The notes beneath the pieces were generated by a model, which saw only the letters and a program-made list of their open reading frames with translations, was not told the origin of the DNA and did no database searches. From Echinarachnius parma (Eukaryota; Echinodermata; Echinoidea; Clypeasteroida; Echinarachniidae): a DNA stretch of 64,000 bases. This document shows positions 16,401-63,949 of this stretch, one piece after another. Both the position numbers and the translations under genes were made by a program. The stretch spans positions 1 through 64,000 of the forward strand of contig JBAMJV010002946.1 in assembly GCA_037951105.1 (NCBI GenBank), given 5' to 3'. Position 1 is the stretch's first letter, and every line of letters starts with the position of its first letter.

Positions 16401-19400
16401 TCATTGACACTGGAAGCAAATTTGCATATATAATTATGATGGACAAGTTTTAACATGTTTTATTGTCAATGTTTGATGCGAGTGAAGCTGCATGGTAAAT
16501 TATGGTAATGTAATAACTAATGGCTGCCTTGCCTGTAATTTTATTGGTAAATGGTAAAAAAGTGTATGATGGGGGCATCAAAGTTCGTGCACATAACTTT
16601 CAATTCATCATTTTGACAAGAAATATACTGATTTGTATAATGATTCTAATACCAGCTTATTCAGAATATTCTCTGTAGTATAGGTCTAATAAACATGTTT
16701 TGGTTTTAAGATCACTCAATTTTAATTGTTTATTTTGGCCGGTTTTTTAAACCCTTCCATTTTTATTGAGAAAAAAAAAAGGGCATCGAAGTTCGCGGAT
16801 CAGTTTTTCCATTCATTTGTACGCGCATTTAAAAAGCCATTGTAGCTGTCTTCGCTTCACTGTCATTTTTGAGGCATTTTCAAGCACGCACAAAATAAAG
16901 AGGCTTTGAAGTTTGTGCATTTATAACGTATTGTATGCATACATAATGTTGTGGAGCTGTATGCATAATAACTAGCTGCTGGCAAGTTAGCTTGCGCGAA
17001 CTTGAATGCCGTGCGAACTTGAATGCCGCGCGAACTTAGATGCCCTGACCATAAACTGTAAAGTGTAATTAACCCTTTTCATTTTTGATAAATAATAATA
17101 AATACAAAAAATAATCATGTCTTCATGACATACAAAATCTGGGAAAAATTTGTCGGCCGATTCCTCCCTCCATTTATCAGCAAATGCAATAAAACTTTTG
17201 TTTATGTAATCCACAATTCATATACTTTGATAATAATTACCGACTCTGTTGGTTTGAAGACTGCAAAATGTAGGACAAAAATGATGATTTCCTGTCCGTT
17301 TTCCTTACTGATGCATCCTAAAACACAGCGTTCATTTGTTGAACGGTACGAATGGGCGGTATGCTTACCTCCAGCGTATTAGCGTAATTGCGTGTAAATG
17401 GTCCAACGGTTTGGACCATTTACTTTAGTAGATGTGGGAAATCATAAAATTTGAGTTTTAAGACGAAAGACAAAAGACATTTGCTGCTCTATCCAACACT
17501 GAACTAGTTTTGCTGGCAAATTCCTCCCTCCATTTTCCAGCAAATGCAAAAAACAAAACAAAATTGTATGTGATCCACAATTCATTATAATTTGATAATA
17601 AAATGATACCAACTCTGTTGTTTTGAAGACCGCAAAATGTAGACATTTTTGTATTTCCAGTCCGTTTTCTGTACATAGCGAGGCTTCCTGAAAACACAGC
17701 GATTAACTGTTGAAAGGGAATTTGATATTGCGCAATAGTACAATGTACAAATGGCCGGTATGCTTAGCTACAGCATATTAACGTGTATTGCATGTAAAAT
17801 GCTCCAGCTTACCGGACCATTTACTTTAGTAGATGTGCTCCTTATGTAGTTACAAGTATATTGTAATTGTAATCTATTATTTGTCTGTAAATCAATGGAG
17901 CCGCGAGCTATCGAATCTGGCAGATTCTTCTTCAGGCAAACGAATGACAACTATTGTTTTTCTGTGATGCACTATGTAACACTTTTGACCAGGTGCCTAA
18001 AAGATCCTCCTCTTCTTGCCTCCACAGGCCGTCGATATCAGACCAGCAGAAGGTCGGGTTCTTCCGGCAGGACAGGGCCGCCCAGACCGTGGAGTCGGAA
18101 ATTCTGGAACTGAAACAGATGACCATCGTCCTGCAAACTCTTCTCAAGGTATATATATATGCCATGTTCACTGGGTCCACACAGGGCCAGGGGGGTGTTT
18201 CACAAAGATCCTAAGTTGAACTTAACTCTAAATTGGACTTAAAAAGTAAGGAAAGCCAATTGTAGCCTTGGAATGAAATAATTTGAAACCACATTTGATG
18301 CCTTTTTAAAGGACTTTTACCAAAAAAAATTCAATGAAACTAATGGCTTTCCATACTTTTTAAGTCCAACTTAGAGTTAAGTTCAACTTAGGATCTTTGT
18401 GAAACACCCCCCTGGAAAGTGCTGGAATATGACTGCTGCATTTTTTTTTCCAGGGTCTTGTTTCATGAGCGGGTCATAGCTATGTAGTACATTGTCTGGT
18501 GCGAAGCTAGGGTGCAATTATCTCTGTATTTCGCACAGAGAGTCGATAGCCATTGGAAATTCAAAAGCTTTCTTTAGGATCTGAATGCAGATCTAGTTTA
18601 TGAATAGACTATAATTGAAACATATATGTGCTGCAATCTTCAACCTGACTGTGCAAGAGCTTATATATAATGCAACATATCTTTTTCTTTTGCCTGCGAG
18701 AGCTGGCCATTGCTTAAGCAAGTGATGAGGGCATTCAATTTGCTGTTTAAGTGAGCAGTTTAAACCCTAGGCTAGGAACCTGCTATAAAACATTTGTGCC
18801 GTGCAGTTTTCAACCAGACTGGGCAAAATCTTATGCAACCTGTCTTGTTCTTTTGCTAGAAATCTAAAAAGCTGACACTAGAGCTGGCCGTTGCTAAGCA
18901 GGCAATGAGAGCAGATTATGAGAACAAACTACAGCCCCTTGTGATGTACTGATGGAATTTGCTGCTTTTTAGTAGTGCCATTTTAACCCTAAGACACCAT
19001 ACCGTAAAACTCCGTGTATAAGACGCACTTTTTTTCCGTCGGAAAATTTTCAAAGTGGGGGGTGCGTCTTATACACAGGTACAGCAAAAAAAAAAAAAAA
19101 AAAGTCATGTTTAATGCATATTAAACTGGTCTAGGGCATGACTAGAGCTTGATATAAGGGGGAACATTTATCAAAATATACCTTTTTCCTACATAAATTA
19201 TAGTGGTTAGCAAAACAAAATGCAAGTTTTTAAGCAGTAACACTGCTACTAATTGAATATTCAGATATTCATGAGTAGCAGCACTCATTTAATATTCAAT
19301 TTTCTAAACAGTGGTTATACATTTTTCTCAACAAAAAAGTTATTAATGAATTTAGTATTTTGCATATTTAATGAGCATTGCTACCTCATGAATTTATATG

Positions 19401-19454
19401 AATATTCATGAAAAAAAAAATATTCTAAAAAAAAATAAAAAAAATAAAAAAATG

Positions 19455-19486
<32 letters not shown>

Positions 19487-22400
19487 GAAAGTTGGGGGTG
19501 CGTTTTATACACGAGTGCGTCTTATACACGGAGTTTTACGGTAATTAAAACATTTGTGCCATGATAGTATTCAAGTGGGCAACATTTGATGCTACATATC
19601 TTATTCTTTTCCTAGGAATCTAAAGAGCTGAAGCGATCGAGCTGGCCGTTGCTAAGGGCAGGCTATGAGAACTACAGGCCCTTGAGATGTATTGATGGAA
19701 TTTACTGCTTTGTAGTAGTGCCATTTTAACCCTAAGGCACCATAATTAAAACATTTGTGCCATAGTCTTCATAGTCGCCATAGTCTTCATAGTCGCCATA
19801 GTCTTCAAGTGGGCAAAATCTTATGCAACATACCTTGTTCTTTTGCTAGGAATCTAAAGAGCTGAAGCGAGAGCTGGCCGTTGCTAAGCAGGTGATGCGG
19901 GCAGACTATGAGAACAAACTGCAGGAGAAGGCGCTGGAGATGTACTGCCGGATCAACGAGCATGTCACGGTCCTGGAAAAGGCCCACAAGGAGGTGAGAA
20001 AATGTTTTCTAATGGTTCTTGAAAAACTGGGTTCCACCAAACGTTGTGAACTGTAATTTGTGACCGGCTATAGCAAAACCCTGTACTTGTCGTAAAAAAT
20101 CAAAACATATATTTTCATACCATTTGAAAGGCCTTGTTATTTGATGCTTTATTCTAAAAAATTGTCCAATAATTGGCGAAGATGCGTTTGATTCAATTTT
20201 ACGATCGTAAGTCTTTACACACATTATGGGAACTTAAAATGCCCATTTCTACAAAACATGAATTACCGACAAGTGCAGGGGTTTTGCTATAACTGGTCAC
20301 ATTTCTGTAAACTCTTACTAATCAAAAATTCAGTCCCTTTATTGATCTAAACTAAAATCATCGATGATGACTTGTAACGCAAAAGAAGTGCATCAATTTC
20401 TCAAGATCTCAATTTGTAATCTTTATTGATCTAAACTTCATTCATCGATGATGACTTGCGCAAAAGAAGTGCAACTATTTGTCAAGATCTCAATTTTCAA
20501 TCTTGGTGCTTGATCGCACCACCAAAATGTAAGTTTTATCAAATTATCCTGGTCCGACATGAACTTTTACTGGTTCAGGGTCATCCAGCCAGTGCTATGG
20601 TCTAGCCCTGGTTTAAAGGAGTAGATAGCAAGCTTCTGATACTCTGATTTATGTTTTGGCATGAAAATTAACATAATTTGTGTTGACCAAAGTAGTTCAA
20701 TTTCCCCCCCCCCCCCCCCCCCCCTACAGAGGATTGAAATCGTACGAAGGAATTTCAAGCAGCAGCTGGCCAATGTCATCGCAAAGGTCGCCCATGACTG
20801 GAAGGTAAGATCAATCAAATTTGTCCTCTTTGTGTCAATCGTCAACCCTTTCATTGCCAGTATTAAAATGAGGGAGAAAACGGACCGCTTCAATGATCCG
20901 CATCCATTCAAGTGCTGTAATCTGATAATTTTCATTCAATGAAAAATCATATTTAAACATGATTTCTGATGCTCAAAATTTCATAGAAGGTAGAGTGAGA
21001 TACCCTCATTTTATGAAATATCAAAATCCTGACTCTCATATTTTAAACAAAATTTGACTATTTCAGCTAATAACAGAGAAACTACCACAGCGACATAACG
21101 GTCGTTTTGTGGTGAAAGGTCACATATTAAAAAGAGCTTCTCGGTCAGAGCACCAGTCTAGCTTTCTGGAGGTCTTGGTTTCGATTCCTGTGGAAGCCCA
21201 TTTTTCTTTTCTCATTTTTCATTCATTACAAATATCTCTGGTCCGTCAGTTTCCTTATTTCTGAGTTTATTATTAATTTTAATGTAATTTTGTGTTATCC
21301 TTCTCAGAACCATGCCAGTAAGAAGATGAACGAAGAGCTGAAGAAGCAGTCAGGCAGCAACGCTCTGTTGATGGAGGAACACAAGGCTATACAGAACCAA
21401 GTGGCCTCCCAAGAGGGTATCATTGAGATGCTCAAAATGCAGCTAGAGCAACAGGCAAATGTGAGAATCTATTTCTAGGAAAATAATTGAGGTGATGATT
21501 ATAATTATGATTATGACGATGATGATGGTGATAATGATGCTCAAATGCAGTTAGAACAACAGGCAAATGTGAGAATCTATTTCTAGGAAAAACATTGAGG
21601 TGATGATGGTGATGATTATGATTATGATTATGATGACGATGATGATGGTGATGATGATGATGATAGTGGTGATGATGGTGATAATGATGATGATGATGAT
21701 GATGATGGTGATGATTATTGTATTGTGATGATGATGGTGACTTATACATTATTTTGATGATGATGAGTATGTAATATAAAAAGAAAATTATTCAGACATT
21801 TTCAATTATTCAGCCTCTTTTATTGAAAAAAAAAACGGGGGTTTCCTTATGCTGCAATGTATTATTTATTGTTTGTATTTTGTATTTTCTAGTTACCAAG
21901 AAGTGAAGCATCCACTCCGAGTGCTGTGTATGAGGTGGAAGAGCTTAAAGACGAAATGGCCCTCATGAAGAGGAAGATTGACGGACTTGAATCTGCTCTT
22001 GACGGGAAAGATGAGGTCATAGAGGAATTGAGTAAGTTTTTGAATACTTAAAAAGAAATGTAGTTATGACAGTATTTAAAGGGCAAAACTGTCAAATCTT
22101 TCTAAAGAGCGTAAAGATGAAATCTCCATGAAATCTGCCCTTGATGGAAACGATGAGGTCATAGAGGATTTGAGTAAGTTTTACTTCATAATTCAAAGCA
22201 CTTAGAGATGATTCGTATTACATGCTATGTAAATAAAAACATCATCAAATCTTCTCTCTAAATGTTATGATTTAATTCACATTCCTTCAATATCACAGAT
22301 GCATTCGCATTCGCGCTTCCAGCCCATTTTATAAAACTGTTGCAATTGTTGTAAGTGTCCAATTATTGTAACTACCATTGCAACAGCTGTAATGCTCCAT

Positions 22401-25400
22401 GCTGATTGGCTGTTGACCAAATAGTTACAACAATTGCAAGTGTTTTATGAAATGGGCTACTGAGCAATAAGTCAGATAATAATTGCTGATTCCATTTTTT
22501 TCATTCTCTTCTTAGCTACAGATATAATTACACTTTTGTACTATTGTGTTTTGTTTTCTATTTATCCAGACAGAGATTTGGAAAGGTCACAAAGGGACAT
22601 AGAGAGAGAGAGAATTCACATAAAACAGGTAAAGAAGACATAAAGATGCAGTGAATCCTTGACTTAAATATTTTTAATTAAAGGAGTCGAATTGTATTAT
22701 TATATTTATATTTACACTATCTACATTACTATAAAGGGTTGTCCATTCTATTCAATTTTTTGCTTTGCAGGCTTCCCATATTTCCAGTTTAATTGATTTA
22801 ATTAAATATTTTCTGGTATTTAAGATGAGTGATTATACAAAATCAATTGTAGTTTTTCTGCTTATGTGGTAGAGCAGCAAACTTGATGGAACTTGATTGT
22901 ATGCATTTTTCTGCATTTCATATAACAAATGCAGATCAAAAATTATTGTTTTGAAAATTATTGTGAAAAGTTATTTCTTATAGTATGCAAGAATGTATTG
23001 CAAATACATACAAAACGTATTCTTTACATTGTAAACATTGTACTTGTGGAAGAAATAATGCACATGATATTAAGTTATTAATTTAATTTTGTTTTTATAA
23101 CTATTTCATGTACAAAAGGTTCCTTTTGTTCTTACAAATATATAATATAATGCAAATAATAATTGATACGTGTGTTTATTTTATTTAATGGGCTTTACTG
23201 TTTTTACTGTTTATGTTTTCTATCTTTTTTCTCACGAATCTGTCTCAGCTTTTGAAAGAGCTGGAAGAATCCAAAACGGTAGCGATGCAAGAAATATCTT
23301 CTCTCAAAAGACAGGTAAGTGGTCAGTGAATGCAGTTCAGAACCATAACAGTTACACAACAATCGATAAACGTGACCGGTTATAGCAAAACCCGGCACTT
23401 GTCGTTAAAAATCAAAATTCAGATTTCTATACCATTACAAAGGCCTCATCACAAGCTTTCATTTGATGCTTTGTTCTAACTAATTGGTCAATAATTGGCG
23501 AAGATATGATTTTTTCAATTTTACAATCATACATGTAGGTCTTTTACACACATTGTGTGAACTTAAAATGCCCATTTCTTCAAAACATGAATTACCGACA
23601 AGTGCCAGGTTTTTCTATAGTCGCCGTCACAAATGGACTTTTAATCACTTGCTAATTCGGCCGAGGCTGCAGTCATCATCAAGCATTTATGCTTACAACA
23701 TATGGGCCAAATTGCAGAAAGAGATAAAATTGATTGTAGGTTACAATTACTTGTAAGTCAGATCATGTGTTCTAAATGCATAAATCAGATTGGTTGAAAA
23801 GCGCAAACTTTCTGATTTACAATCAATTGTAACTTACAATCGATTGTATATCTTTTTTCAACAGGGCCATGGTCTCCTGCCTTTTCTTTTGTAAATACAT
23901 TGTAACTCACTAAACATACATGAGATTTCCATTCTCTCCCCTTCTTTCGTACTGTGTATTATATGCAGATAATTTTCTCACGATGGATTGACACCAATCA
24001 ATAGGTACTCGTTTTGCTTGTATGTTACTGATTATAAACCCGGCCCTCACAAAGAGTTCTGCAATTCAAGTTTGAGTGTCAATATCTCTCTTGTCCCTAT
24101 ATTATCTGACATTGGTATCATTGAAAAGCCTATTTATTCGTATTTACCTTGATACCCTATTTTTAGTGGTTATGTAATTATGGAATGTGCATTACACCAA
24201 AATATGGGGCCGAGTAAAGATTGAAATGTTGCAAAGGATATTTCATATAAACTCATCCGTGGATCAAAGAGCTGCCAAAAATACCAATGCCCCCAAATTG
24301 TCTATTTTAGCAATCAAATAATTGAATTGACTTAGTCGTCGCGCATGAACGTTCACTGGCCCGCACATAGAGAGCACATGGAAAGCAGCAGCATGATGTT
24401 ATCAAAGCAACATACCGGGCCCAAGGGGGTGTGCAGACTAAGGATAATTTGTGTTATCTCGGCGTCGGGGGCATTTTTACATGGAACTTTTGTTTCATAT
24501 TTCTGCATTTAACCATTTTAATCGGTTCAGATTTTGCTCGAACCCCTCTCTATTTCTATACTCTGTATACTCTAATCTTCTTTTCTAAAGCGCTTAGAGG
24601 TTTGTTTGAATTAATTACGCAGTATATAAATTTGTCATATTATTATTAGTAGTAGTATCTTAATCTCTTCTTGGACATATCTATCAAATACATTATTCAT
24701 AAATTGATTGGCTGCATGTCAACATTAAAGTTACCATCATTTGACTTTTTCATTCGGAGACGTTTCATGAAACGGGGCCCTGGGTAGTAGAGAGCAGCAA
24801 TGCGAATTGATTGCCTTGCTGTAGGGCAATGAGACATGGATTCAAACTCTTGTAGATTGAAATAAGTTATTATAATTATTATTCATGGTATTTATTTTGA
24901 ACATGTATGGCAGCAAACAAGCTGAATTGCACGTGCTAAAAAGTTATTGAATTGAATTGATTTAATTTTACTGAATTCAAATCTGTTTCCCCTTCATATT
25001 ACGTGCAGGCTGAGAAGCAGAGAATGGGCCTGGAGAGGGACATGCAGGACAAGATGAAGAAAGCAAGAGATGATGTAAGAAACTTTGTATGTATTCTGTT
25101 AGGAAAATGATCTATGGATGAATTTACAACGTCCTCTATGTTTCAGGACAAAGTCATTGGGGAAATTAAATTAAATGCAACTATTATTATTACCGTAAAC
25201 CGGGGTGATCGCTTTTGCCACTTTTTTAGATGAATATATTTTCAGCAAGCATCAATTTTTAGAACAAATTTCTTATTAATAGTAAATGTATTACTCATTG
25301 CGGATATAGTATCGAAAATAATATCGCTAGTGATATTCGTTGACATTTCTTATTGTTTCTAATGTAGTCCTATAGGGTAATTGTATAGAATCAGAAATTT

Positions 25401-28400
25401 ATAGTTCGCGAAGCAAAATGCAGCCGATTCGCAGAAGGTGGACGTTGTGTATCGAAAACATCCTCTTCACGATAACCAAATTTGTATGATATTGACTCTC
25501 TGCATAGATGTTGAACATGGCGAAGCAGCACGCAGTGGACTCGCAGAAGGCGGAGGAGGAGAAGATGCAGCTTCAGAGAGTAAAGGAGAAACAGGAGAGA
25601 GAAATACAGAGGAAGGTAAGAGGAAAATGAACGCAGATCTCTACAAGAATTTGTTTAAAAAATAATAATAATGGTATAATAATTTAAATGTTCTCCTACA
25701 TCCCCCGAGTCTAGAAAATTTCTATGATAGAATCTTGCCCTCAAACATGTGTTACATGCTCAAAAAAGGAGCATTTAACTGAATTTTGTACATAAGAAGA
25801 CGAGCATAAATTGTCACCGTCTTTAAAAGCACTCACGAGGATGGGGAAGGCCGCTGATTCAGGAAATTAAATCGATGCCCTGTTTAGGTATATAACCTTG
25901 ACATACATATAAACAAATATCTGAAAAAGCTGTAGGAAAAAGGAGCAATATATTTTTCTTGCTTTTAGGAGTGGCTAAAACTGCTGGAATAGGACAGAAA
26001 ATCAATAGAATGAGTTGCCTCACTGAAAAAAAAGATTGAGGGAAAAGATTGCAAGACTAATTGATTGCAAATTCTTTGAAAATGTCAACCAAAAAATGAA
26101 CAACTGATTATGTTTTCCTTTTATTACGCTTTTAGGAGCAAGAAACAGTGGCCAAGGCTGCCGAGTCCGGGGAAGAGATCACAAAGTTGGGTCGTCTCGA
26201 GAAACATCTCAGAGGGGAGATCGCAAGATTGAAGAAAGAATTGGCCAGGAGCACCAAATTGTGGGAGAAGAAGTTTACTGTTCTTCAAAGGAGGTGAGTA
26301 TATTTCATTGATTGATCCATCTCATCTGTAATAATAATGTTCGTTAAGTGCAGATATAATATAGAAGTGGATTATGATACATGTAGTTAGTATTATAGTT
26401 GGTTCGTTCGTTGATTGGTCGGGTTGGTTGGGAAGCCTAATAACAAGGGAAAGTATAAGATTATACGGTGGTTGGCTGGTTAGAAGTGGTATATAACGAA
26501 GGAATGTATATCAAAGATGGTTAGTTGGTTGGTTGGTTGGTTGGTTAGTTGGTTGGTTTGGTTGGTATTTTGGTTGGTTATTTTGGTAGGTTGGTTGGGC
26601 GGTTGGCTTGTTGGTTGATTGATTGGTTAGTTTGTTGGTCAATTGGTTGGTTGGGAAGCGGTAAAACAAGGGAAAGTATAAGATTATACGCGGTTGGTTG
26701 GTTGGTTAAAAGCGGTATATAACAAAGGAAAGTATAAAAGATGCATCGTTCGTTGGTTGGTTGGTTATTCTGGTAGGTAGGTAGGTAGGTAGGTAGGTAG
26801 GTAGGTAGGTAGGTTGGTTGGTTGGTTGGTTGGTTGGTTGGTTGGTTGGTTGGTTGGTTGGTTGGTTGGTTGGTTGGTTGGTTGGTTGGTTGGTTGGTTG
26901 GTTGGTTGGTTGGTTGGTTGGTTGGTTGGTTGGTTGGTTGGTTGGTTGGTTGGTTGGTTGGTTGGTTGGTTGGTTGGTTGGTTGGTTGGTTGGTTGGTTG
27001 GTTGGTTGGTTGGTTGGTTGGTTGGTTGGTTGGTTGGTTGGTTGGTTGGTTGGTTGGTTGGTTGGTTGGTTGATGGTTGGTTGTTTGGCTGGTTGGTTGG
27101 TTGGTTGGTTGGTTGGTTGGTTGGTTGGTTGGTTGGTTGGTTGGTTGGTTGGTTGGTTGGTTGGTTGGTTGGTTGGTTGGTTGGTTGGTTGGTTGGTTGG
27201 GTTGGTTGGTTGGGTTGGTTGGTTGGTTGGTTGGTTGGTTGGTTGGTTGGTTGGTTGGTTGGTTGGTTGGTTGGTTGGTTGGTTGGTTGGTTGGTTGGTT
27301 GGTTGGTTGGTTGGTTGGTTGGTTGGTTGGTTGGTTGGTTGGTTGGTTGGTTGGTGGGTTGGTGGGTTGGTGGGTTGGTGGGTTGGTGGGTTGGTGGGTT
27401 GGGTTGGGTTGGGTTGGGTTGGGTTGGGTTGGGTTGGGTGGGTTGGTTGGTTGGTTGGTTGGTTGGTTGGTTGGTTGGTTGGTTGGTTGGTTGGTTGGGT
27501 GGTTGGTTGGTTGGTTGGTTGGGATTGGATTGGATTGGATTGGATTGGATTGATTAATTGATTGGTTGGTTGGTTGTATTCATTAATTGTTTGGTTGTTT
27601 ATTTTCATATGTTTAATAAATGCATCTAATATATGTGATTGGACATACCAATGTAATGTAATTTTATTGTAGCATTATTTTTTTAAGAAAATGAAAATAT
27701 TTATATCATAACAATTGTAATTACAATTTTGTTTTCCAGCATGTATGCCTTGAAAGATGAGAGCTATTTGAGGCAAACTCTCCAGAAACAAGCCGCAACT
27801 CTCCACCATGCCACGGTCATGTATGCCGTAAGTAACAATGTTATGAAATATTTTATTTTATATGTGACCTTACACCACAAAACGACCGTTATGTTTCTCT
27901 GTTATTAGCTAAAATAATCAAATTTGGTTTAAAATATGAGATTTAGGATTTTTGTATTTCCTGATTAGAGGTATCTTAATCTACCTTCTGTGACATTTTG
28001 ATCGTCAGAAATCATTTTTAAATATGTTTTTTCATCGAATAACAAATATCAGATTACAGCGCTTGAATGGACGCCAATCTTTGAAGTGGCCTGTTTCTCC
28101 CTTGTTTTAAATCTGCTTCAGCCATTTTCCAAATCTTTGGCGCTCATTTTCAGAGAGTTTAGCTTGTCTGAATATGACAATTTGTATACCATTTTAAAGG
28201 TAATGACTCCTACTGTTATGTCATGTGAAAATCAGCATAATAATTTTCCAGACTTATTGGTCGTTTTGTGGGGTAAGGTCACATATGATACCTATAAATT
28301 TTGATTTTTCAAGATTACATACCTCTTTGTTTTGCGACACTCTTTCAGAGATAGAAGCCTACTATTCTGGCCTTGCTGTCAAGCGTGGCGGGATGCAGCT

Positions 28401-31400
28401 ACACTGCTGATTGTCATTTTGAACTAGGTTTGTTTGTGCGCACTATGCTAGTGTACATTGCGCACTGCACGATTTACCAATCAGAACTACCTTAAAGTGG
28501 CTGGAGGATACCTACATGCTGACAGTGAGGATGAAACTGCAACTTTCATGTACATTTACAGAGTGCTATATAAGCACTAGCCTGATTGGCCAGGGCAGGT
28601 GGAAGACAGATTGGAGCCAGTATTTTCTAGAAAACAAGAGGGGTTATTGTCCCTGCAGGCAAACAGAATAATTGAATTAAAGTGAACCACGTTATCAGTA
28701 AAGTATATTTCATAAAGTTATTGTTTGTTCATGATCAGAAAGTCATTGTTTGTGTGATGTGCTTTAATGTTCTAATTTTCTCACAGAGTGACCAACCAGG
28801 TACTGTTGAGAGGAGTGCAGCCATCCAACCCCAGCCCGCCGCCTTGCCTCCCCCAGCTAGACACTCTGGACCACAACCACCATTGGTAAGACACCCCCTT
28901 TCAATCATTTACCTATTCATTAGTAAATTAATTTAGAGGAGAGCAGCCACCCAGCCCCAACTCACCTTGCTTCCCTGAGCTAGACACCCTGGTCGACCAC
29001 CACCAGTGGTAAGCCAGTTAGCCCTGGCAATGATTACCCCAGTATGCTCATGCTGAGTGCATAAAGGCTTAAATAACCCCCTCCCCCCTCGATCCGGCCC
29101 ATGCCCACCATACCTCCCAAATCTAGACTATGAACCGCAAGCACCATTGGTAAAAACACCCTCTTTGATGATTAGAGGCTTTTTGATATGTAGACTGGTA
29201 CATTAAGGTTCACGCCAGTGTGCATGCGCCGTACGTCCCCTAGCTCTCATGTCGTCTCGTCCACCACCAAATTATGGACAGCATTATATATCCCCAATCT
29301 TGTATCAACAATTCTGGTACCTGGACAAGACGACACAGTGGGCGCATGCACACAGCTTGAACGGAACATGTGACATCATAGTGTCCCAGTCTACATAGTG
29401 GACATATGCAATCGGAAAGCCTCTTTTAACCCATCTATAAGCACATATATGAGGTTATACAGGGTGGCCCACAAATAACGGAACGGGGTACTTGCCATAC
29501 TAAAGATTCATGATGCCCGCCATACTGCATCGAGTAACGTTCAACCGTGCGCCATTGTGAGTGTGAGTTCAGCTGTGTATAGAGAAGAAGGAGTACTAAC
29601 AATGGCGCACGCATTGAACGTTACTAGTACTAGTTGCTATGACGGGCATCATGTGTCTTCATTATAGCAAGCACCCCGTTCGGTTATTTCTGGGCCACCC
29701 TGTATAGGTTTAGTTTGTACAAACTCGCTTGATTTGCAACACACTGGACCACAACCACCATTGGTAGGACATTCACTCTTTCAATCATTATGCCATTCAT
29801 AAGCACATGAAGTGGGGGTTAGGGGTCAATTTGAAACCTCGATGTTTGGGCCAAAAACATTTGATATTCAGGCAATATCCCACATTCTGGGGCAAAATCA
29901 ATTTCACTGCAGATTTTTCTGAAAGTCATATTGGACCAAATGAGATGTAGACCAAATAGATTTTGATTTTTGACCAAATGTATATAAACAACTATTAAAT
30001 GATTTTCTTTTCGTTTCTTTGATGTTCCTTGCAGCCTGGGATAGGTCAGATCAACCCGATGCGGGACAGGAAGTTTGAGGTCATGTCGGCATACACTGTG
30101 TCACCTCCACCGGGAAGGGGTGTCGAGCTGTTCTCTGTCAACGGTAAGCATTCATGCACTCTATTTAAGATAACATGAGTATTACGAATGTCTTCTTTAA
30201 GCAATCATGAGATAATATTATATAAAAAGTTACAACAAAAATAGACAAAATTATGACCCGATGTGAGACAGGAACTTTGAGGTCATGTCAGCCTACATGC
30301 ACAGCTGGCCCTTCCTCTGGGAAGGGGTGTTGAGCTGTTCTCTGTCAACGGTAAGCATCCATACAGTCGAAGATGTCGTCCATAATGCATGTTTACAATC
30401 ATAATAATATAGAAAAATAAACAATCTTAGCAAAACATTAAAAATGTATCTTTTGTTATGGGTCTTGTAATCCCATATTCCTGTATAATACATGAATGCT
30501 TTACACTGTGTCCCCTCCACCGGGAAGGGGTGTGGAGCTTTTCTCTGCCAACGGTAAACTTCCACACAGTAATTGATGTCTACATTACCCAATCATAATA
30601 AATGAAATATCCTATGGTATATAAAATATATATAAGTTTGAGATGATGTCAGCGTACACTGTGTCATCTCCACTGGGAAGGGTGTTGAGCTGTTCTCCAT
30701 TAACAGTAACCATCCACGCATGAATGCATATCTACTTTATCAAACAAAGATCCTAAGTTGAACTTAACTCTAAGTTGGACTTAAAAAGTATGGAAAGCCG
30801 TTAGTTTCTTTGAAAACAAATGATAAAAGTCCTTTTAAAAGGCTATAAATGTTGTTTTAATTCATAAATATGTTTCTATTATCAAAGAGATTTCATGTTC
30901 TTCATGTAAAATTTATCAAAAGTCTAAAATACTTGCATTTTTGCTTTTGAATTTATTTTGTTCCAAGGCTACAAATGGCTTACCATACATTTTAAGTCCA
31001 ACTTAGAGTTAAGTTCAACTTAGGATCTTTGTGAAACACCCCCCAGGTGATATAGGCAATTTTCCTGCCACAATTCTGTTTAATTTGACAGAATTTGAAC
31101 CCCAACATTGAGTCACTAAATTTGATCTAGAATGAAAATCACTTAACAAAAATTGGTGATCATGGTATCATTTTCTCTAAAATGGATTCCCTATATAATG
31201 AAACCAAACGTCTTGTACACATGTTATCGGAAGTATCCTGTTCGGTTTTATTTTTGCTTCCCGGATTATTTGCAAACTAATATTCTTTTTATAAATTCAA
31301 ATAGCAGTCTTTGAATGTGATACAAGATTGTTTTTCTTTTCTTCATTGTTAAATATCATAATCAGCGACATCATCATCATCATCATCATTATTTATTTAT

Positions 31401-39632: not shown

Positions 39633-49737
<10,105 letters not shown>

Positions 49738-51251: not shown

Positions 51252-51412
51252 TGCAGAATTCTCTTTGAAGACGTGCCCACGACTTTGGCTTGGCATGCAT
51301 GACTAAAACTGCGCTATAGTACAAATCGCATGCCATAGTCTGATAGTGACTGATAGATATAGAGCTTAGTCCAATTCATGGGCACGTCTTTGAAGAGAAT
51401 GCATACAGGCTA
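51252..51412. repeat. Inverted repeat with AAGACGTGCCCA arms
   Basis: TTCTCTTTGAAGACGTGCCC pairs with GGGCACGTCTTTGAAGAGAA; inner GGCATGCATGACTA / CGCATGCCATAGTC. Single copy in the window, in RACGAP1 intron 1. Confidence 0.7.
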
Positions 51413-53867: not shown

Positions 53868-56800
53868 ATGGCAACCCTGGCGAGGAAGCAGCACTCCTTG
53901 GTTGCAGCCTTCGATGAGATTGTTCACTATTCATCCATCCTCTCCAAGGGATGTGAACCAGGTACAGAGTCATTTCAAAGTCTAGTTTGTGGAGTGTTTC
54001 ACAAACATGTATTTATTTGAACTTAAATTTAAGTTAGATTTAAAATGATAGAAAGCTGTTAGTTCCGATGTGAAATTGCTGGCAAAGTGTTATTTCAAGG
54101 CTACAAATGGCTTGTCATGATATTAAATTTCAAGTCTAATTTCAAAGCTAAGTTAAATTGATCTTAGAATATTCCTGAAACAAACCCTTCTGTGGCATAA
54201 AACAAGATTTCCCAATTCCCATATACCACAGTTTGAAATATCAGCATGATTTTGCTTGCCCAAACAAAGTATAATTTAACTGGCCCTGGGCAATAGGGCT
54301 ATTCTTAGTGTTGTTGAGCCCTGGATAATCGTAGTTTCATTATTTTGCTTGGTACCAGCAATGTCAAATCATGAAAAGGAAACAAAATTGTAAAATTATT
54401 GTGCAACTTACATGAATTTGAATTATATGAAATTTGGTTATCCCTGCAGAGTTTATGATGCTGGTGAAGAACCAGGAGGAGTGCCGGCGGAGATGGTTTG
54501 ATCTCGAGCATGACCAGATGGGAGGAAGGGAGCACGTCATAAACCTGACCGCAGAGAGAGATGCCCTACTCACAAAACTCAAACATGCAAGGTACCAGTG
54601 AATGGATGTAATGATGTTGATGGTGGTGGTAGTGGTACTGAGAATGATGATGATGGTGGTGATGGTAATAATAATAATGATGATGATGTGGAGATGGTTT
54701 GACCCCAAGCAGGACCAGATGGGAGGAAGGGAGCACGTCATTAACCTGACCGCAGAGAGAGATGCCCTACTCACAAAACTGATGATGGGGAGGAGGAAGA
54801 ATATATTGATGGCGGTGATGATGATGATGTTAATAATGATGAAGGTGATGATGGTGGTGGTACTTTAGATGATGATAATGATGGTGGTGATGATATTCAT
54901 TTTTAAATCTGCATCTGATGAGGAGGAGGAGGACAAATATGATGGTGGTGGTGTTGCTGAGGATGATGATAATTTAAGATAACTTCTTTTATGTTTAGGT
55001 TATTATTTATGATATTATTTTATATAAAATTTTAATCCATCCCAAAGACCCAAACTTTTGTAATCATGTTGTGGTACAAACAGCTGATTATTTATCGTTT
55101 GCAGAACGTAATTCTTTATTGCTTGCCGTTTTTATTTCACGATTTTGTTCTACTCACAGGAGCCAAGTTGAATCTGAGATGTCAAGAAGAAAGAAAGCAG
55201 AATCTGCACAAGAGGATCTGGTAAGGAAAAAAACTCTTCACTTTTTTCAAATTTTAAATCAGGCCAATAAAATAACTCAATCTCAATTTTTTGTGGCCCA
55301 ACGTGCTTGATCTTGATTACAATTTTTCTCATTCTGTTACTGTGAATTTGAAAATCTAATTAATCAATTTGGCCACCAAAATATGACTATCATACATTTT
55401 TGCTGGCCCAATATCAATTGTTTCTGTTGTCTGTATACATGTAAGTCTTTATCTTTTTGGTTTTCTGTTCATGCTCACAGTGGCAGTTTTCAAATTTGTT
55501 ACACTTTTAAAAGTGTTATTATAAATGTTATTTATCATTATTATTATTAAAAAAACACAGGACAGGCAGATCGCTCTCATCCGTGAGCTCCTCAACGACG
55601 GCAACAAGATGAACGCGCTGTCTGACAAAGAGCGAGAGGGGGCGCTGTTGTTCCTCAGCCACAATGCGGGTACGCCCCAACCCCACAACGGAGGCTCACC
55701 GAACAAGCGTCTGTCGTGCATCAACGAGAAGTCAGCCGATCTGCTGTCTGCATCTGACCTCGACCTCGACCACACCGAGGATGACCTCGATATGTCCGTG
55801 CTGCGAGATGGAAAGAAGTGGAAACGAACAAAGAGGGTGAGTCAATGGATGCCTGCAGTGAAGAAAATAAATACAAGTAATGGGGGCTCAGGCAAATTTA
55901 GCCTCTGAAATGCCCAAAAGAGTGCTGTTTTCAGCTAATCTGTCCGATGATATATTCAACTGCAAAAGTGGTAATTTTCAAAGACTTTGCACTTGTTAGC
56001 AAGCACAAATTCTAAATGGTATGGACTTCATAAACTAAGTTTTTTGTTGTAAGTTTTCTGGTTGGTATTCGAATGGTAGTCACTTGATTTTGTATTGTTT
56101 TCAGCTTATAACTAATAGATGATAATCTGTTTTCCGGTTGTTTTTATTTTGACCTGCAGAAGCCGAGTGCACCTCCTCTTGAGGAAGATGACACACCGCC
56201 CAAGAAGAACAGACGGGAAGAGGTCAGTATGAAAACTCTACATTTATTTTTGTCAATTTTCAGTGCTCAAAATAAGCACAGGCCTGCTGGCCCGGGTGGG
56301 CAACTAAAATTAGCTTTGGGCCACCAAAATTAATTAATGCTAAATTCTACTGGCCCAAATGGGCAACCAAATATAACAACTATTTCTTTGTTTGGTGCCA
56401 CTAGATTTAGGTTTAGGGTCATTAGAATTTGATAAATATTGTGTTTACCTGTTTTGTCATATAAATCTGTCTATGTATTATGATTTTCAGAGGGTTAATT
56501 TAATGTAAGCAAGCTTGAAAAGTAGCCCCCCCCCCCAAGTAATATTGTATTTGTTATTCTTCTTACTTTTATCTCCCGGTTTTAACAACACCACCCTGCT
56601 CATCTCTTGCAACAGCATAATACATCCATTGTTACGACCACGGTTACGGTTCCTCAGCATGGCCACGGTCCCATCACAGCCACCACCAACATTGGGAAGC
56701 CTGCCGGCAGGTACAGGAGAAGCTTGAGCCAGCCGGATATGCCAGTTAAAGGTGAGAAAAAAATCTGCTGTAAATTAAAGATACTGTCCGCCTTTTGGAA

Positions 56801-59800
56801 TTCAATTTTCAAAAATTGCAAGATTATCGTCTTATATTAAAAGAAAATACCATTAAAAGCTTGCCTGAGAAAACTAGGGCAAGGTGGCAAAGGATCCAAG
56901 AGTGCACACATAACATACAAAGACAGTTATCAAACCAGAGTCTTATCTCTCTCTCTCTCTCTCTCTCTTATACATCAAACTGGAATCATATGTCTCTCTA
57001 AAGACTCTAATACATCTAACTGGATTCACATCTCTCTTTTTTCATTGTATAATTAAAAAAATGTGGCTGTTGTAGGTTAGAACGAACAGTTTTTGTGAAT
57101 GACGCCCATTCCGCTAAGACACGCGCCGGGCAGCAAAGGAGCCAGAGTGCACACATAACGTACTTGTAAAACCGTCATCAAACCAGAGTCTCATCTCTCT
57201 CTCTTCATACATCAAACTAGATACATCACACTTTTACGTTGTATAATAAAATGTTCTCTTTGATGGCTGTTGTAGGTGATACAGAGGAATTCTTGTGGAT
57301 GACGCCCATTCCGCTGAGACACACGCCGGGCAGCAAGCGAGCCAGAGTGCACACATTCTGTACTAAGACCGTCATCAAACCAGAGTCATGCGACCCTGTA
57401 AGTATTTGCAAAACATAACCAATGCTATTTCTTCAATAAACATCTAAAACATATAGTAGTGAATGAAGTACATGACTTGGATATCATTCAATAATTTCTG
57501 TTTGTTATGCAAGTTGGTATACCTTCTTTTGACCGTGAATTATCTTAGTCCGCTAAGAGGAAACGGCAACATCTATAATAATTGTATATTTCTCAATTTC
57601 AATTATAACAAATGTAATTGATTTAGTTACTTTTCATGCCAGTCATGGTGACAAATCATAAACTATTGTTGAATGCCTTTAGCTTGGAGTATACAATTTT
57701 CTAGTACTTTGACTTTTATTTGAATTGCTTAAATATTTAAATGAAAGTTGAATACCTTTGTTATGCTAGACTCTCTCTTATTTGATTTCTCCTTTTCTTC
57801 TCAGTGTGGGAAACGCATCAAGTTTGGCAAATACGCCCTCAAATGCAAAGGTAAGTAAAGAACAGTTTCAAAAACAGACATACATGTACAATACAGAATA
57901 TCCAGAAACAACAAATGCAAAAGTTGGTTATGAATTAGAAGTAGGGGAATCATAAGAAGAAAATCTGATTAGCTTGTTGGAATATAATAATAATATACTC
58001 TATCTATATAGCGCCTAATATGATTGATAATCATCTTTAAGCTACAATGACATTATTACCTCGGTCATAGGATACAATGCAAACCAGCACACCATCTCCA
58101 CTCCCTGGGGAGCATTCCTTCCAAGCCGCTCATGGGCATTGAGAAGGCGTTCACGTACTACAGGGTCCCCATTTATACACCTGGGTAGAGAGCAGTAATT
58201 GGGGATAAATTGTCATGCTGAAGGACAAACGCGGTGGGCAGGGTTCAAAATCTTGCCACACCACATCCACGAAACCTTCTATTACATAAACAGCATACAG
58301 CAACGTTTGATTCTACAATAAAATAAAGTTTTGGAGTGAGAAGCATAATTTTGAATTATATGTTTCATTTTATGTCGATTAAAGGGATAGTTGAGTTCTG
58401 GTAAGGAGAGTACAGTTTTAGTGAAACTGAATTTTAGTAACCAAAACCTGCATCATTACATTACAAACTAATTGTTATAACTAGAAAGGAACACAAAATT
58501 ACAAATGACGTAGTAAAGATCATGTTATCATTCAAAAAGAGCCGTTAAAACGTAAGAGGGCGCTCTCTAAACACTCATCGGTTTGAACCATTTTGAATAA
58601 AATATTGTGCATGTGATGCTTTGTTGAAATAGTGATTAGATAGAGAAATAACCAACAACTATTTAAATACCTATTTTGTAACTTTTTGAAAAGAGGAAGC
58701 ATTTTTTTGAATTTTTAACGGCTGGTTCAAAATTCTCTAATAAACCCGGGGCCCCGGATTTATTACAAATTGTTATATTTATGGATATTTCAGCCGTTTC
58801 TGAACCGATTTTGATCAAACAAAGATGATTTTATTGTTTAAATATTATGCTCTTTCAAATTTTACACTCAGTTTTTCATTACCTCACAAACCAATTAAGT
58901 AGTCTAGCGCCCTCTCTACCAAAACTCAACTTTTCCTTTAATTCATGCATAGTCGGGTTCCATTTTATTTCATTCAAAATGTTTGTGATTTATAGGTCTG
59001 AACACTGGGCGAACTTAGTGTCACTACATTTTCATGTTAATTTTCATATTTATGAATTAAAGTTAATGATATATTTCTTTGTTTGTTTGTCCCTAGATTG
59101 TAGACTGGTGTGTCACCCAGACTGCAAGGACAATGCAGCACTCCCCTGCGTACCGACTGCAGGTACACCAACCAAAGCACAGGCCTCGGCTCTCGCAGAG
59201 TTTGTACCATCAACTCCTCCCTACATCCCATCAATAGTTGTAAGTTTCATTTAGAGCTAAGCTGACTAGAAAAATCAGTTAATTAAACTGTTCCCTTCAA
59301 GATTCTGAAATCCCCATAGACTTTGTACATAGCCCACCCGGTCCCAGTAAGCAACAGGTTAAATGAATGAATGGGCAAAGAAAATGGGCCCTGCACAGGA
59401 ATCAAGCCTGAAAACTGGTTTGCTAGACTGGTGCTCTGACCATTGAGCTACAAAGCTCTTGTATTGCAACACTGCAGTAATGGAAATATAGTTATTTATT
59501 TATGAAGATTAAATAGCCTAGAAATCACTATTTATGCCAAATAGAATAAGAAATAATATCCTGCATTACACCAATTCATTTGCAAACTGCAGACGACAGA
59601 AAAGCAAAATGTGGAAAGTCTATATCAAATCTCTCTATAATTTTTTTTTTATTGTATGTAATTGCATTTTTTAAATTTGCTTAAGTATTCTGTAAATCGG
59701 TAGTTATATTGAGCATTGAATTAACAGAACTAAACTGATGTTTATCTTTGTATCTATGTTACAGATCCAGTGCATCAATGAGATCGAGCTCCGAGGGATG

Positions 59801-62800
59801 ACGGAAGAGGGTCTGTATCGAATCTCAGGCAGCGATAGGGAAGTCAAAGAACTGAAGGAGAGATTACTTCTCAAGAATGACCCACATTTGGTAAGTAACG
59901 TGTCAGCGTTGAATCAGTATTTACCAGGAATACAATTAAATGGCCAGTATTCTATTATTTTTGAAGTTAGACCAAGTTATAGTTAAGCTAAAACCCTGCA
60001 TGAGTTTAACTTAACTTACAACTTAGTCTAAGATCATGGAGAATACAGGAATACTGTTCAAATATTGAGACTTTATTAGGGTTTTTTGTATATGGGTGTT
60101 ATCAATTGAAGTGAATGCCAATTGTCCACTCTCTCTACTAAAACTTTTCTTGTAGCACCATCATTATGTATTTGCAAGAGAATTATCACTTACACTCTCT
60201 CCAATGAGAAGGTTAATCTAGCAAAATCATTATAATAGTACTTGCAGGAGAAGGGTTGTGACATCCACACTGTTTGCTGAGCTTTCATAGGTTCCTTTCC
60301 ATCCCTGCTTGAACGGCTTGCATTAACAGGCATTGAAAGTCAACATCCACCATTTCAGTATGAGAATGCCACCTAGACTTGTTGCCAAGACCCCCTGATA
60401 AAGTTGCCAAATGTTGTGTTGAGAAAATTATGCTTCCGTATTTCTAACAATTTTGGTTACCAAATTATAACAAGTAACATACCACCGATAAGCCGATATC
60501 TTGGAGATCAGAGAATTGACATAATTATATAGGAACTTTATAGGGTTGAAGTATTACTTATTATTTACTCATTACACCCTTTCTAATGCCCTTGCAGGAG
60601 AAGGTTTGTGACATCCACATGGTGTGCGGAGCCCTGAAGGATTTCTTCCGCTCCCTATCAGAACCGCTCGTCACATTTCAAAATACAAATTATTTCACCT
60701 AAAAATGTTTATACAATTTTTTTTTTTTTTTTTTTACAGAAAATGTATACAAGTATTTCAAAGCCATACACATGAATAACTGCCAATTTTTCTTTGGCAT
60801 AACATTTATTTAAATTAATGATTTATTGTCTACTCCAATTTGACTAATTATGTTCAAATCGCAATACTATCATTGTGTACTTACAGGAGAAGGTTCGTGA
60901 CATCCACACGGTGTGCGGCGCCCTGAAGGATTTCTTCCGCTCCCTCCCAGAACCCCTCGTCACCTTTGAACTGCACGAGGCCTTCATGAAGGCAGGAGGT
61001 TAGTAACGACTACAACAACAACTTTCTATTTTCAACTTTCGCATTACAGTGGAGCCACCTTATAACAAGCACTTTGGGGCCCTTGGATTTACCTTGTTAC
61101 ATGTATATCAGGTACAGTCAAACCTGTCTTAGTGGGCATCTGTCTATAGCAGCCAACCTGCCTATAGTGGCCATCGATAATGATCCCTGCAGTATAAAAA
61201 CAGGGTTATGGAACCTGTCTATAGTGGCCACCTGCCTGCAGTGGCCACTTTTCTAATTTCCCTTGGGTGCTCACTATACACAGGTTTGACTGTATATGGT
61301 TATATTAGGGCTATAAAGCAATAAAACACAAACATCTCTGACCAGTAAAATTATACCTTGTTATATCAGTTACCTCTTCAGATTACTTAAAGGGTACCAC
61401 CACCCAAAAATAATATTTTATTATAGAAAGGTACCATCTTTAGTATTCCATTCCTTCAACAAGTTCACAAAAATATGTTTTCAGAAAAAAATATATAATT
61501 GGTAAACGCATCACCATTCTCAACCATGTGTTCATGCGGTCTGAATTGCGTAGACTATATGCGTGCAGAGCCAGAGCGCAGTGTGCAGAGCGAATGAATC
61601 ATCCGGGAATCTATTGACGTACGCGTGAAAGCATTGGCGCACTCTCAAATGCTTGGCCCGTATGGAACCAGGAAATAGCAATGGTTCCGTAAGTGGTGGA
61701 AATTAATTGCTTTGTTTATGAATTACACAACCCTTTGCAAAATGTTGGGTATCTATTTGATATCACAAAACGGTACCAAAACATATAATAATGTGTTGTC
61801 CTTTGCCTGGTGGTCCCGTTTAAGTGTACCTCTGCTAAAAAAAGAAGTCTTTCATGGTGTAGATTTCAGTGTCATCTGAAAGTTGTATTAGATTTATTTT
61901 GACTGGTATTTCATCTCTTCTGATCACCTCCAGATTTGCCTGATGCGGATGAGAGTACGACGGCCATGTACCAGGCTGTGAGCGAGCTACCACATGCGAA
62001 CAGGGATACCATGGCTTACCTTATCATACATTTACAAAGGTTAGTGCACAGAATTTGTGGTTCTTAATGGGACTCCTGTATATTGTTATTGATATATACT
62101 ACGATGAAACCCATCTATAAAGACACCCCCCCCCCCTCCCTTTTATGCCTCCGCAACGTAGTAGCCAGAGGCATTATGTTTTTGGATTGTCTGTACGTCC
62201 CGTTCTCGTGATCGCATTATCTCAAGAACCGATTGACGGATTCTCACCAAACTTGGTTCATGTATCAGGGATGCCAGTTGTCGGCTATAGCCTGATTTCA
62301 GGCCCTGACACCTTTCCATATCAGGCTTTATCAGGCTTCATATTGTACATAACATATGAGGCTCGAACATGTCTGGGTCTCTTTTCAGGCTCATCTGGAG
62401 AAACCAACTGGTATCCCTGATGTATGTATCTTGTTTAAGCAGGTGGTCTTTACAGAAAGGTTTATTCACATACAAACTACTGCCTAGGTTATATTTTTAA
62501 CAAAATTGTACATATATATTGTGCGTTGATCATCAAGGTTACTCTTGCTTAAAGTAGTGTGAAATCTGCAAATATTAAAATACTATTACAATATTTGAAT
62601 TCTTTATATTCTATTTTCCTTTGTAGGGTTTCAGAGATGGGAGACTGCAAGATGCATGTTACGAATCAGACCGATATATTTGTACAGGTTTTAGATTTTT
62701 CTCTTGCTTCAAACAGTGTGAAATCTTCCCAAATCTTCAAATCTTCCTTTACAGTAATTGAATTATTCATATTCTTCCCAACCACTGCAAATGTGTCCTT

Positions 62801-63949
62801 CAGCAAGACACTATTTGCTGCTCTCAAACTCTCAACCCAGGTGTAGTAAATGGGTACTTGGCAGGAATTTTTTCCTTGATATGCTTGAGCGCTTGAATAA
62901 GGCTGCTTGGCTAAAGCCAAGGTCATAATGCTCTGTGCGCTTTGAAACTTAACTGCAAAAAGCACTACATACAAAATTGACAATTATTATTATTATTATT
63001 CACAAGTTATTTGTATCTTTTGCAGGGTTTCAGAGATGAGAGACTGCAAGATGCCTGTGATGAATCTGGCCAAGGTGTTTGGGCCAACGATCATCGGCCA
63101 CGGCACCCCCGAACCGGACCCAATGCAGATGCTGAGCGATACCAAGACGCAACCAAGAGTGAGTACATGTTCACAAGAAAATCTTCAATGTCACGCCTCA
63201 TCCATACTTACGCAGTTTCGATCAATAAAAGGAATGACATTTTGAATCATAGACGGGTAACAAATGAAATTAAAGTTTGTGGCCATAAATGTTTGTTTTG
63301 GGTTAATGAATGATAGAGAGAACATTACAATACTTGCCTGATTGTCCACTTGCAAAATATAAGTGTGGACTGTTGTTATATTAACAAATCAAGGCCCATG
63401 CAAATGTTTAATGATCAAGACAAAACCTAGAGTGAAAACATGATTTTGTTGATAACTTTGTGCTAAAATTCCAGTTTCATTCTCAAATCTAGACCTAATG
63501 TGAATGTTGGGCATTTATATTTGTCGTAAAATTATCTGTTTGAGAAAAAAATTACATGGATATTTGTCTACGATTCTGAGATTAATTTGTTTGAAGCATT
63601 TTGACGACTCTTATTCGCTGAAAGCATGTTTCTAAATCTCGCAAGCAGAGATTATAGAGCAGTTGTAATACGCTTTTTCTAACCTAATCTTTAAACAAAT
63701 TGCCCCAAATTTGCCAACGAATGGTAATTGAAAAGCCATGAAATGATTTTCTTAGAAAGTGCTGAAAGTGCTGAAACCCTGTTTAATGACATTGTGTGTT
63801 TGTCGTTTGTCAGGTTGTGGAGAGGCTGATGTTCCTTCCAACGGATTTCTGGATGGCGTTTGTCAACATGGACGCAGATAACACGGAGAACTCCAGCGTG
63901 ATCTCAAACCGCCATACTGCACGCACCCCAGGCACTCCGGGACAGCCCA
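53868..63949 (+). CDS. RACGAP1: Rac GTPase-activating protein 1 (MgcRacGAP/Cyk4), 3'-incomplete
   Basis: Centralspindlin subunit acting on Rho-family GTPases in cytokinesis. Coding exons: 53868-53961, 54450-54591, 55160-55220, 55561-55836, 56160-56222, 56616-56751, 57276-57397, 57805-57850, 59097-59239, 59765-59890, 60887-60998, 61934-62039, 63026-63158, 63814-63949 (donor; continues beyond the window). All are GT-AG and phases close, giving 565 complete codons. Residues ~1-110 are helical (coiled-coil region that pairs with the kinesin MKLP1 in known homologues). A basic, Ser-rich linker follows, with VTTTVTVP as in vertebrate RACGAP1. Residues ~283-331 form a C1 finger with full H-x12-C-x2-C…C-x2-C-x4-H-x2-C-x7-C spacing. 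Residues ~358-530 are RhoGAP, with the arginine finger in GLYRISG and [11 protein letters not shown]. Decayed exon copies occur near exons 54450, 57276, 60887 and 63026. Confidence 0.96.
54600..54970 (+). repeat. (GAT)n-type microsatellite in a RACGAP1 intron
   Basis: Imperfect GATGAT/GGTGGT array directly after the donor at 54592, interrupted by an exon copy. Its layout mirrors the array after gene Y exon 5. Confidence 0.9.
54689..54780 (+). pseudogene. Copy of RACGAP1 exon 3 core inside a (GAT)n array
   Basis: About 90 bases nearly identical to 54487-54579 (CAGATGGGAGGAAGGGAGCA). It is flanked on both sides by GAT/GGT microsatellite and lacks both splice sites. Confidence 0.85.
56880..57195 (+). 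pseudogene. Two decayed copies of RACGAP1 exon 8 region
   Basis: 57064-57195 resembles 57260-57390, including the acceptor context GGCTGTTGTAG, but the first in-frame codon becomes TAG. 56880-56950 is a shorter, more decayed copy (AGAGTGCACACATAAC…CAAACCAGAGTC). Both are followed by CT-rich (TCTC)n. Confidence 0.85.
57276..59239 (+). other. RACGAP1: C1 zinc-finger exons of RACGAP1
   Basis: Three exons (57276-57397, 57805-57850, 59097-59239) encode the C1 domain. The first supplies the opening His and first Cys (HTFC…PESCDP), the second the CGKRIKFGK segment, the third [10 protein letters not shown]…LPC. The metal ligands follow the C1 pattern. Atypical C1 domains of this family bind lipid or protein partners; phorbol-ester binding cannot be judged here. 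Confidence 0.9.
58383..58937. mobile_element. TTAA-flanked element with AGGGATAGTTGAGTT end
   Basis: TTAA at 58379-58382 and 58938-58941. Ends AGGGATAGTTGAGTTCTGGT and ACCAAAACTCAACTTTTCCT. The interior contains GGGGCCCC and a 'GAGGGCGCTCTCTAAA' motif. A truncated inverted relative lies at 47892-48350 in ATP5F1B intron 1. Confidence 0.8.
59388..59458 (-). repeat. tRNA-like SINE fragment (copy 2)
   Basis: On the minus strand: A-box-like TAGCTCAATGG, GTCAGAGCACCAGTCTAGC and B-box-like GGCTTGATTCC at roughly tRNA spacing. Probably a tRNA-derived SINE head, not a functional tRNA. Confidence 0.6.
60248..60702 (+). pseudogene. Two copies of RACGAP1 exon 12 upstream of the real one
   Basis: 60598-60702 keeps the acceptor (cccttgcag) and an open frame matching the exon ([16 protein letters not shown]), then diverges and ends in TAA at 60700-60702 without a donor. 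60248-~60310 is older, with frameshift and stop. The functional exon is 60887-60998. Confidence 0.85.
61113..61293. mobile_element. MITE with ACAGTCAAACCTGT ends (copy 3), nested
   Basis: Ends TACAGTCAAACCTGTCTTAG and …CACAGGTTTGACTGTA. It appears inserted into another element (61046-~61375; CAGTGGAGCCACCTTATAAC…CCTTGTTATATCAG) related to 38064-38166. Confidence 0.75.
62627..62687 (+). pseudogene. Truncated copy of RACGAP1 exon 14
   Basis: Begins with an acceptor (cctttgtag) and GGTTTCAGAGATGGGAGACT, close to 63026 onward, then decays. The possible donor (ACAG|gtttta) would leave an incompatible phase for the next exon. Flanking intron segments are repeated as well (~62540-62620 against ~62690-62780). 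Confidence 0.8.
62750..62998 (+). repeat. SINE-like element with (ATT)n tail
   Basis: CAGCAAGACACTATTTGCTG…CTCAACCCAGGTGTAGTAAA…GGTACTTGGCAGGAA and a tail of TATTATTATT. This resembles a SINE core widespread in marine invertebrates. A reverse-strand relative lies at ~58030-58260 (CACCTGGGTAGAGAG). Confidence 0.65.

Follow-up and report, generated by a model that had tools for sequence, protein, structure and literature searches.

Why should exons of three neighbouring genes be flanked by decayed fragments of themselves? The question is raised by a 64-kilobase (kb) stretch of the echinoid Echinarachnius parma (GenBank assembly GCA_037951105.1, contig JBAMJV010002946.1, positions 1 to 64,000), here called the window. 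A first-pass annotation of its sequence had reported that exons of gene Y, ATP5F1B and RACGAP1 sit next to one to three decayed direct copies of exon and intronic flank. In total, 24 decayed partial copies were aligned beside 13 of the 34 annotated exons, one to three at each, and a cut at score 130 retains 12 of these 13 exons (the two copies below it are those at 25392, with 118, and 63395, with 126; exons and copies are named by their first coordinate). The number of exons with copies agrees with the earlier report (six in gene Y, two in ATP5F1B and four in RACGAP1), and one weak case, gene Y exon 25508, was added. These ladders of exon copies are confirmed as a real observation. They are probably the relics of small tandem duplications across one splice boundary, retained in surplus at exon edges. 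All results refer to this single window and to exon coordinates of our own annotation, which was built from reading frames and splice signals.

The abundance of such repeats was compared with chance after short-period repeats (2142 bases) had been masked. Self-comparison with the basic local alignment search tool (BLAST) at a raw score of at least 130 gave 43 direct and 8 inverted pairs at close range, defined as an offset of 30-1500, and 44 direct and 37 inverted pairs among the distant ones. The means of ten block-wise dinucleotide shuffles were 0.0, 0.0, 0.4 and 0.6 in the same order. The 43 close direct pairs take in a satellite and some dispersed elements. Orientation is nearly balanced among the distant pairs, and the direct excess is confined to close range. 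A direct match of at least 130 within 1 kb was found for 15 of 68 exon-edge tiles and an inverted match for none, in line with the direct orientation noted before; at this score the controls gave 1 of 68 with reversed neighbourhoods and 0 of 340 with draws of distant sequence. Intron tiles (n=171) had 43 direct and 14 inverted matches, and tiles outside genes (n=182) had 17 and 27. Judged by eye, most of the matching intron tiles belong to the copies or to the satellite at 40.6-41.5 kb. A scan by banded Smith-Waterman alignment, in which gap costs were soft, was abandoned in favour of BLAST when it produced kilobase-long chance alignments.

The position of the copies is strictly ordered. In 23 of the 24, the alignment spans the exon and the intron of one boundary; the copy at 56865 holds exon sequence only. 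All 11 acceptor-side copies lie upstream of the parent exon in the gene direction and all 12 donor-side copies lie downstream. Counted by exon edges, of which there are 14, such one-sidedness has a probability of about 2 to the power -14 by our own arithmetic. Such sidedness follows necessarily from tandem duplication, but not from the insertion of a copy made nearby. Seven copies overlap the parent block or lie at most 24 base pairs (bp) from it in BLAST alignments on which no distance limit was imposed (the first copies of exons 46592, 57276 and 60887, and the copies of exons 44389, 21308, 21905 and 54476). The aligned exon part measures 25-103 bp and the aligned intron part 0-172 bp, with no common end point. 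One splice site is often preserved, as the first-pass annotation had it: the donor GT is kept in 11 of the 12 donor-side copies and the acceptor AG in 7 of the 11 acceptor-side copies, one acceptor having been deleted (in this AG tally the copy of exon 63027, one of the 7, was scored by eye and that of exon 25508 left unscored, both exon starts being one base off). Based on direct orientation, near-contiguity and the side rule, the proposal that a local tandem duplication of short blocks made the copies is well supported, with blocks of about 80-290 bp.

Copies may also be inserted during double-strand break repair from a nearby template, and the repair-mediated proximal duplications of vertebrates (PMC2671141) resemble the present copies in being short (mean 162 bp for the human ones) and close, within 5 kb. 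However, as far as the passages of that paper at hand go, pairs within 50 bp were removed as tandem, whereas the seven contiguous copies lie closer than this. Orientation there can be opposite, as it is for one exon copy, whereas no edge tile here has an inverted match and the side rule has no exception. Donors with exon sequence are few in its human table: 8 of 824 are partial or full exons and 16 lie in untranslated regions, which suggests that human local copies are not rich in exons. Such an origin is very unlikely for the ladders.

The differences between copies and parents show how the copies have aged. Over the 24 alignments, they amount to 70 of 500 bases at the first codon position, 57 of 499 at the second and 122 of 498 at the third, and to 399 of 1545 bases of intron flank. 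Divergence is thus 0.127 at first and second positions together, 0.245 at third positions and 0.258 in the flank; the ratio of third to first and second positions is 1.39-2.53 in a bootstrap over exons. First and second positions stand at about half the intron value, which is the mark of a neutral copy beside a constrained exon, where one side changes at these positions and both change elsewhere. The copies decay at the neutral rate and the parent exon is under selection. In the parent exons, the reading frames are open and splice signals are present. Within the exon part, 12 of the 24 copies carry a frameshift, 9 an in-frame stop and 16 one or the other. Identity to the parent is 0.68-0.89 for 17 copies in seven families, so that they differ from it by 11-32%. 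In five of these families each copy scores higher with the parent than with the other copies. The exceptions are exons 19850 and 31416. At exon 19850, the copies beginning at 18805 and 19564 have a 6-bp gap in common and align with each other over 204 bases, compared with 134 and 147 to the parent, and therefore at least one of them was itself duplicated. Gene conversion between exon and copy was considered and is unnecessary, since third positions and intron diverge alike.

The same features bear on two further explanations. Working alternative exons would be expected to have both splice sites and an open frame. Most copies do keep one splice dinucleotide, and the copy at 60417-60681 is in frame over 84 aligned exon bases, but none of the 24 alignments has both sites, 16 have the lesions just described, and first and second positions differ at half the intron value, as they do in an unconstrained copy. 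It is scarcely plausible that the copies are alternative exons. Still less credible is an assembly artefact from merged haplotypes, although the window is known from assembled sequence alone: haplotype joins should produce near-identical blocks, whereas the copies of the seven families are far from their parents, carry stops, insertions and deletions, and bring intronic flank with them in tandem order.

The concentration of the copies at exon edges was examined by counting clusters, for which two BLAST schemes (score at least 130; E at most 1e-5) supplied the close direct repeats, and these were joined so that all copies at one place counted once. There are 25 clusters, 15 within gene spans (12 touching an exon, 2 in introns only and 1 dispersed) and 10 outside them (4 non-dispersed and 6 dispersed). 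Seven were dropped before counting, with at least half of their bases under dispersed or inverted matches (six outside gene spans and one inside, at 26432). Within gene spans, 12 of 14 clusters thus touch an exon. The expectation was taken from a simulation in which random units of uniformly distributed age were duplicated in the real sequence, with exons under constraint; the cut was again 130, alignment was by Smith-Waterman instead of BLAST, and five settings were run. Of all edge and intron-only units generated, 19-24% were edge units, and among the detected ones this share was 26-30%.

The explanation that the first-pass annotation named as simplest, without deciding on a preference for exons, is a general process of small tandem duplication in which exon copies stay recognisable longer through their conserved parent. 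A visibility bias of this kind does exist: it is seen in the halved clock of the codon positions, and simulated exon-edge units were detected about 1.4-1.55 times more readily. But visibility alone predicts that 26-30% of clusters touch an exon, against the 12 of 14 seen (P 1.2e-5 at an expectation of 0.28 and 2.5e-5 at 0.30), and the excess recurs in each half of the data, with 6 of 7 in gene Y and 6 of 7 in ATP5F1B and RACGAP1 together (P 0.003-0.004 each). The local tandem process stands, but general duplication plus visibility accounts for too little, and it is rather doubtful that these two suffice. When five intron-only events are counted (20337, the satellite at 40615, the dispersed cluster at 26432, the 31531 array and, from outside the gene spans, 50443), the share is 12 of 17 and P is 3e-4 to 7e-4 at 0.28-0.30. 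Three gene Y exons (28787, 30035 and 31416) rest on splice signals and on a frame that joins across them, with no known-protein match behind them; if three gene Y exons are treated as wrong, 9 of 14 clusters touch an exon and P is 0.005-0.008. The intron flanks also have more than 0.87 score per base in 21 of the 23 copies with flank, both copies of exon 60887 being lower. At this density an intron-only pair of 150 bp would pass the cut, so that most events of such age confined to introns should have come to light, although some of the flanks are short and each has an exon as its anchor. In this window, the evidence for an exon-edge surplus beyond visibility bias is strong but comes from a small sample, the clusters being strung along three genes with exons of our own calling.

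Two causes of the surplus can be set against each other. Mutation might be targeted at exon edges, for example by breaks at a GC step or a nucleosome edge, or be tied to transcription. The 12 clusters against 2, the stacking of several copies at a single exon edge, and the published amphioxus cases, which likewise lie on exon-intron boundaries, all agree with this. Targeting is nevertheless unlikely, as the block ends are scattered in both exon and intron, the youngest events show no significant excess, and the published cases are themselves biased, having been noticed by people reading genes. The surplus most likely arose through selective retention.

Based on these findings, the ladders may be explained as follows. 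A duplicated unit of roughly 80-290 bp would cross one splice boundary, always leaving one whole exon: a unit with the acceptor would give a truncated copy upstream, and a unit with the donor a truncated copy downstream. The truncated copy, being unconstrained, rots neutrally while selection holds the parent exon, as the divergences show, and some copies were duplicated again, as is seen at one exon. Copies of complete exons would probably be purged by selection, since splicing would include them. Among the 24 alignments there is none of a whole exon with both splice sites, the longest covering 103 of 109 exon bases, so that of the copies of "part or all" of an exon described in the first-pass annotation only the partial ones were found. 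The simulation gives 2.5-5.3 complete-exon events beside 12 edge events, against 0 observed; the P of this shortfall is 0.024 in the first setting and, by our own arithmetic, 0.005-0.08 across settings, a weak sign that such copies were selected out.

Tandem copies would tend to be lost via slippage or unequal exchange. Once a copy has decayed, however, a collapse through its exon part would presumably move a lesion into the working exon and be selected out. Duplications at exon edges would thereby be locked in and those within introns would vanish; larger deletions near exons would be barred in like manner. The odds excess is about 15-fold by our own arithmetic, and if half of the loss routes were closed, each copy would need to face about 5 losses within the mean age, which is a modest rate. 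It is a tentative generalization that selection acts here as a ratchet, the edges of eukaryotic exons slowly becoming fringed with dead copies of themselves which cannot safely collapse after decay. In that case, exon edges should account for a share of local tandem duplications that climbs with age, far beyond visibility bias. On how exon-boundary repeats arise, the window offers numbers, namely a strict side rule, a built-in clock in which the exon is held and the copy is neutral, and an edge excess beyond simple visibility bias, and the excess can be tested in any annotated genome. Intron gain has been proposed to draw on spare splice sites as raw material, and the copies carry such sites too.

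Several observations weigh against duplication followed by retention at exon edges. Long spacers, such as 235 bp at exon 63027 and 98 bp at exon 19850, call for later insertions. An old tandem duplication of about 350 bp at 17084-17837 (68-71% identity) lies outside any annotated exon, a short way upstream of where the first located exon of gene Y stands. The exon part serves as anchor when intron flanks are aligned, which may inflate weak alignments, and exon 28787 lacks the surplus at third positions (12, 11 and 8 differences). The excess is not significant (3 of 5 by our own count; P 0.07-0.14) when events are restricted to those whose intron identity is at least about 85%. The rates of substitution, insertion and deletion in the simulation were assumed, and larger deletions, which could be blocked near exons, lie outside its model.

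The kind of duplication is already known, and it is its concentration at exon edges that is strikingly high here. Published passages on amphioxus describe "mirages", minisatellite-like tandem duplications of exon-intron boundaries, in the globin genes BflGb6 and BflGb9 and in Adh3 (PMC3087553, PMC3902484); the latter paper adds PGBD5, with imperfect repeats of a similar kind, and refers to Adh and troponin C as cited cases. As far as these passages go, mirages too are direct tandem copies across the 5' or 3' boundary of an exon, with the regular exon left whole and AG or GT present in many but not all copies. Undisturbed regular splicing and a length that is unstable between haplotypes are further properties reported for mirages. 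The present copies likewise span a boundary (23 of 24) and are tandem in one orientation, as the inverted-match count, the side rule and the seven copies within 24 bp attest. In those passages, the units of mirages are 10-160 bp long, compared with about 80-290 bp here, and the ladders differ in consisting of one to three old, decayed copies beside many exons of three neighbouring genes. The BflGb6 repeats, with 3 and 6 units in two haplotypes, are 81-100% identical (PMC3087553). This level is no part of the defining wording in the passages seen, but the ladders, at 0.68-0.89, fall below it and are for this reason called an aged variant of mirages rather than plain members. The mechanism behind the amphioxus repeats is called unclear in PMC3087553, in the part drawn on here. 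Intron gain by intragenic tandem duplication also involves a block with splice signals, but there a new intron arises, and here no new working exon or intron was seen. The close direct repeats or "doublets" of Achaz and Thomas are short duplications, tandem or nearby; a link to exon edges is not described in the one passage drawn on (PMC2671141). The matches listed for literature on local or exon-edge tandem duplication included the amphioxus cases, but none of those listed was a count of exon-edge duplications across a whole genome.

The coordinates of the exons and copies are collected in the table.

Table. Exons of the window with neighbouring decayed copies (positions in the window; upstream and downstream refer to the gene direction).
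Gene	Parent exon	Span	Strand	Copies	Remarks
Gene Y	19850-19995	18593..19995	+	18597-18739, 18805-18956, 19564-19699	3 upstream, acceptor side
Gene Y	21308-21460	21308..21641	+	21536-21641	downstream, donor side; contiguous with parent block
Gene Y	21905-22031	21905..22276	+	22132-22276	downstream, donor side; 2-8 bp off parent block
Gene Y	25508-25616	25392..25616	+	25392-25444	upstream; weak, score 118, under counting cut
Gene Y	28787-28885	28787..29810	+	28932-29043, 29090-29196, 29739-29810	3 downstream, donor side
Gene Y	30035-30143	30035..30720	+	30241-30417, 30491-30587, 30634-30720	3 downstream, donor side
Gene Y	31416-31500	31416..32208	+	31782-31980, 32108-32208	2 downstream, donor side
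ATP5F1B	44389-44547	44389..44677	-	44591-44677	upstream, acceptor side
ATP5F1B	46592-46778	46592..47017	-	46833-46913, 46933-47017	2 upstream, acceptor side; first directly adjacent, 82-bp period
RACGAP1	54476-54591	54476..54883	+	54688-54883	downstream, donor side; directly adjacent
RACGAP1	57276-57397	56865..57397	+	56973-57180, 56865-56944	upstream; first adjacent, with acceptor; second exon part only, side unclassifiable
RACGAP1	60887-60999	60060..60999	+	60060-60320, 60417-60681	2 upstream, acceptor side
RACGAP1	63027-63158	62534..63444	+	62534-62682, 63395-63444	first upstream, acceptor side; second downstream, donor side, weak, score 126, under cut

The three genes are comprised of 34 annotated exons. 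Gene Y (plus strand, about 18.0-32.3 kb) has 12, and its joined exon pieces match Pfam DUF4709 with E 4.9e-27. ATP5F1B (minus strand, 39.6-47.9 kb) has 9 and matches the beta subunit of ATP synthase in the PDB (E 3e-124). RACGAP1 (plus strand, 53.8-64 kb) has 13 and matches RacGAP1 in the PDB (E 3e-30). The exon list is incomplete in that the first exons were not located, and some exon ends are off by one base. RACGAP1 presumably also has an exon for the C1 domain, as expected from the human protein; this exon was not located in the window annotation.

Beside gene Y exon 31416, an intronic array with periods of 44 and 88 bp (31531-31702; matches of 85-86%) is nested within the donor-side ladder. 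The ATP5F1B intron at 40615-41551 holds a tandem array of units of about 151 bp, of which Tandem Repeats Finder reports 4 copies over 40947-41551, followed by (GGAC)n. A (GTTG)n tract of more than 800 bp occupies 26748-27576, and a TGGT-rich block of similar kind is found at 7571-7946. An element of the fold-back type lies at 4311-5557, with a pair of inverted arms that measure about 420 bp each, are 94% alike and stand 413 bp apart. The block at 6229-7445, which has both direct and inverted copies, is transposon-like. On the minus strand, 8616-10559 is an open frame of 648 codons, the first 300 residues of which have no Pfam match at 0.01.

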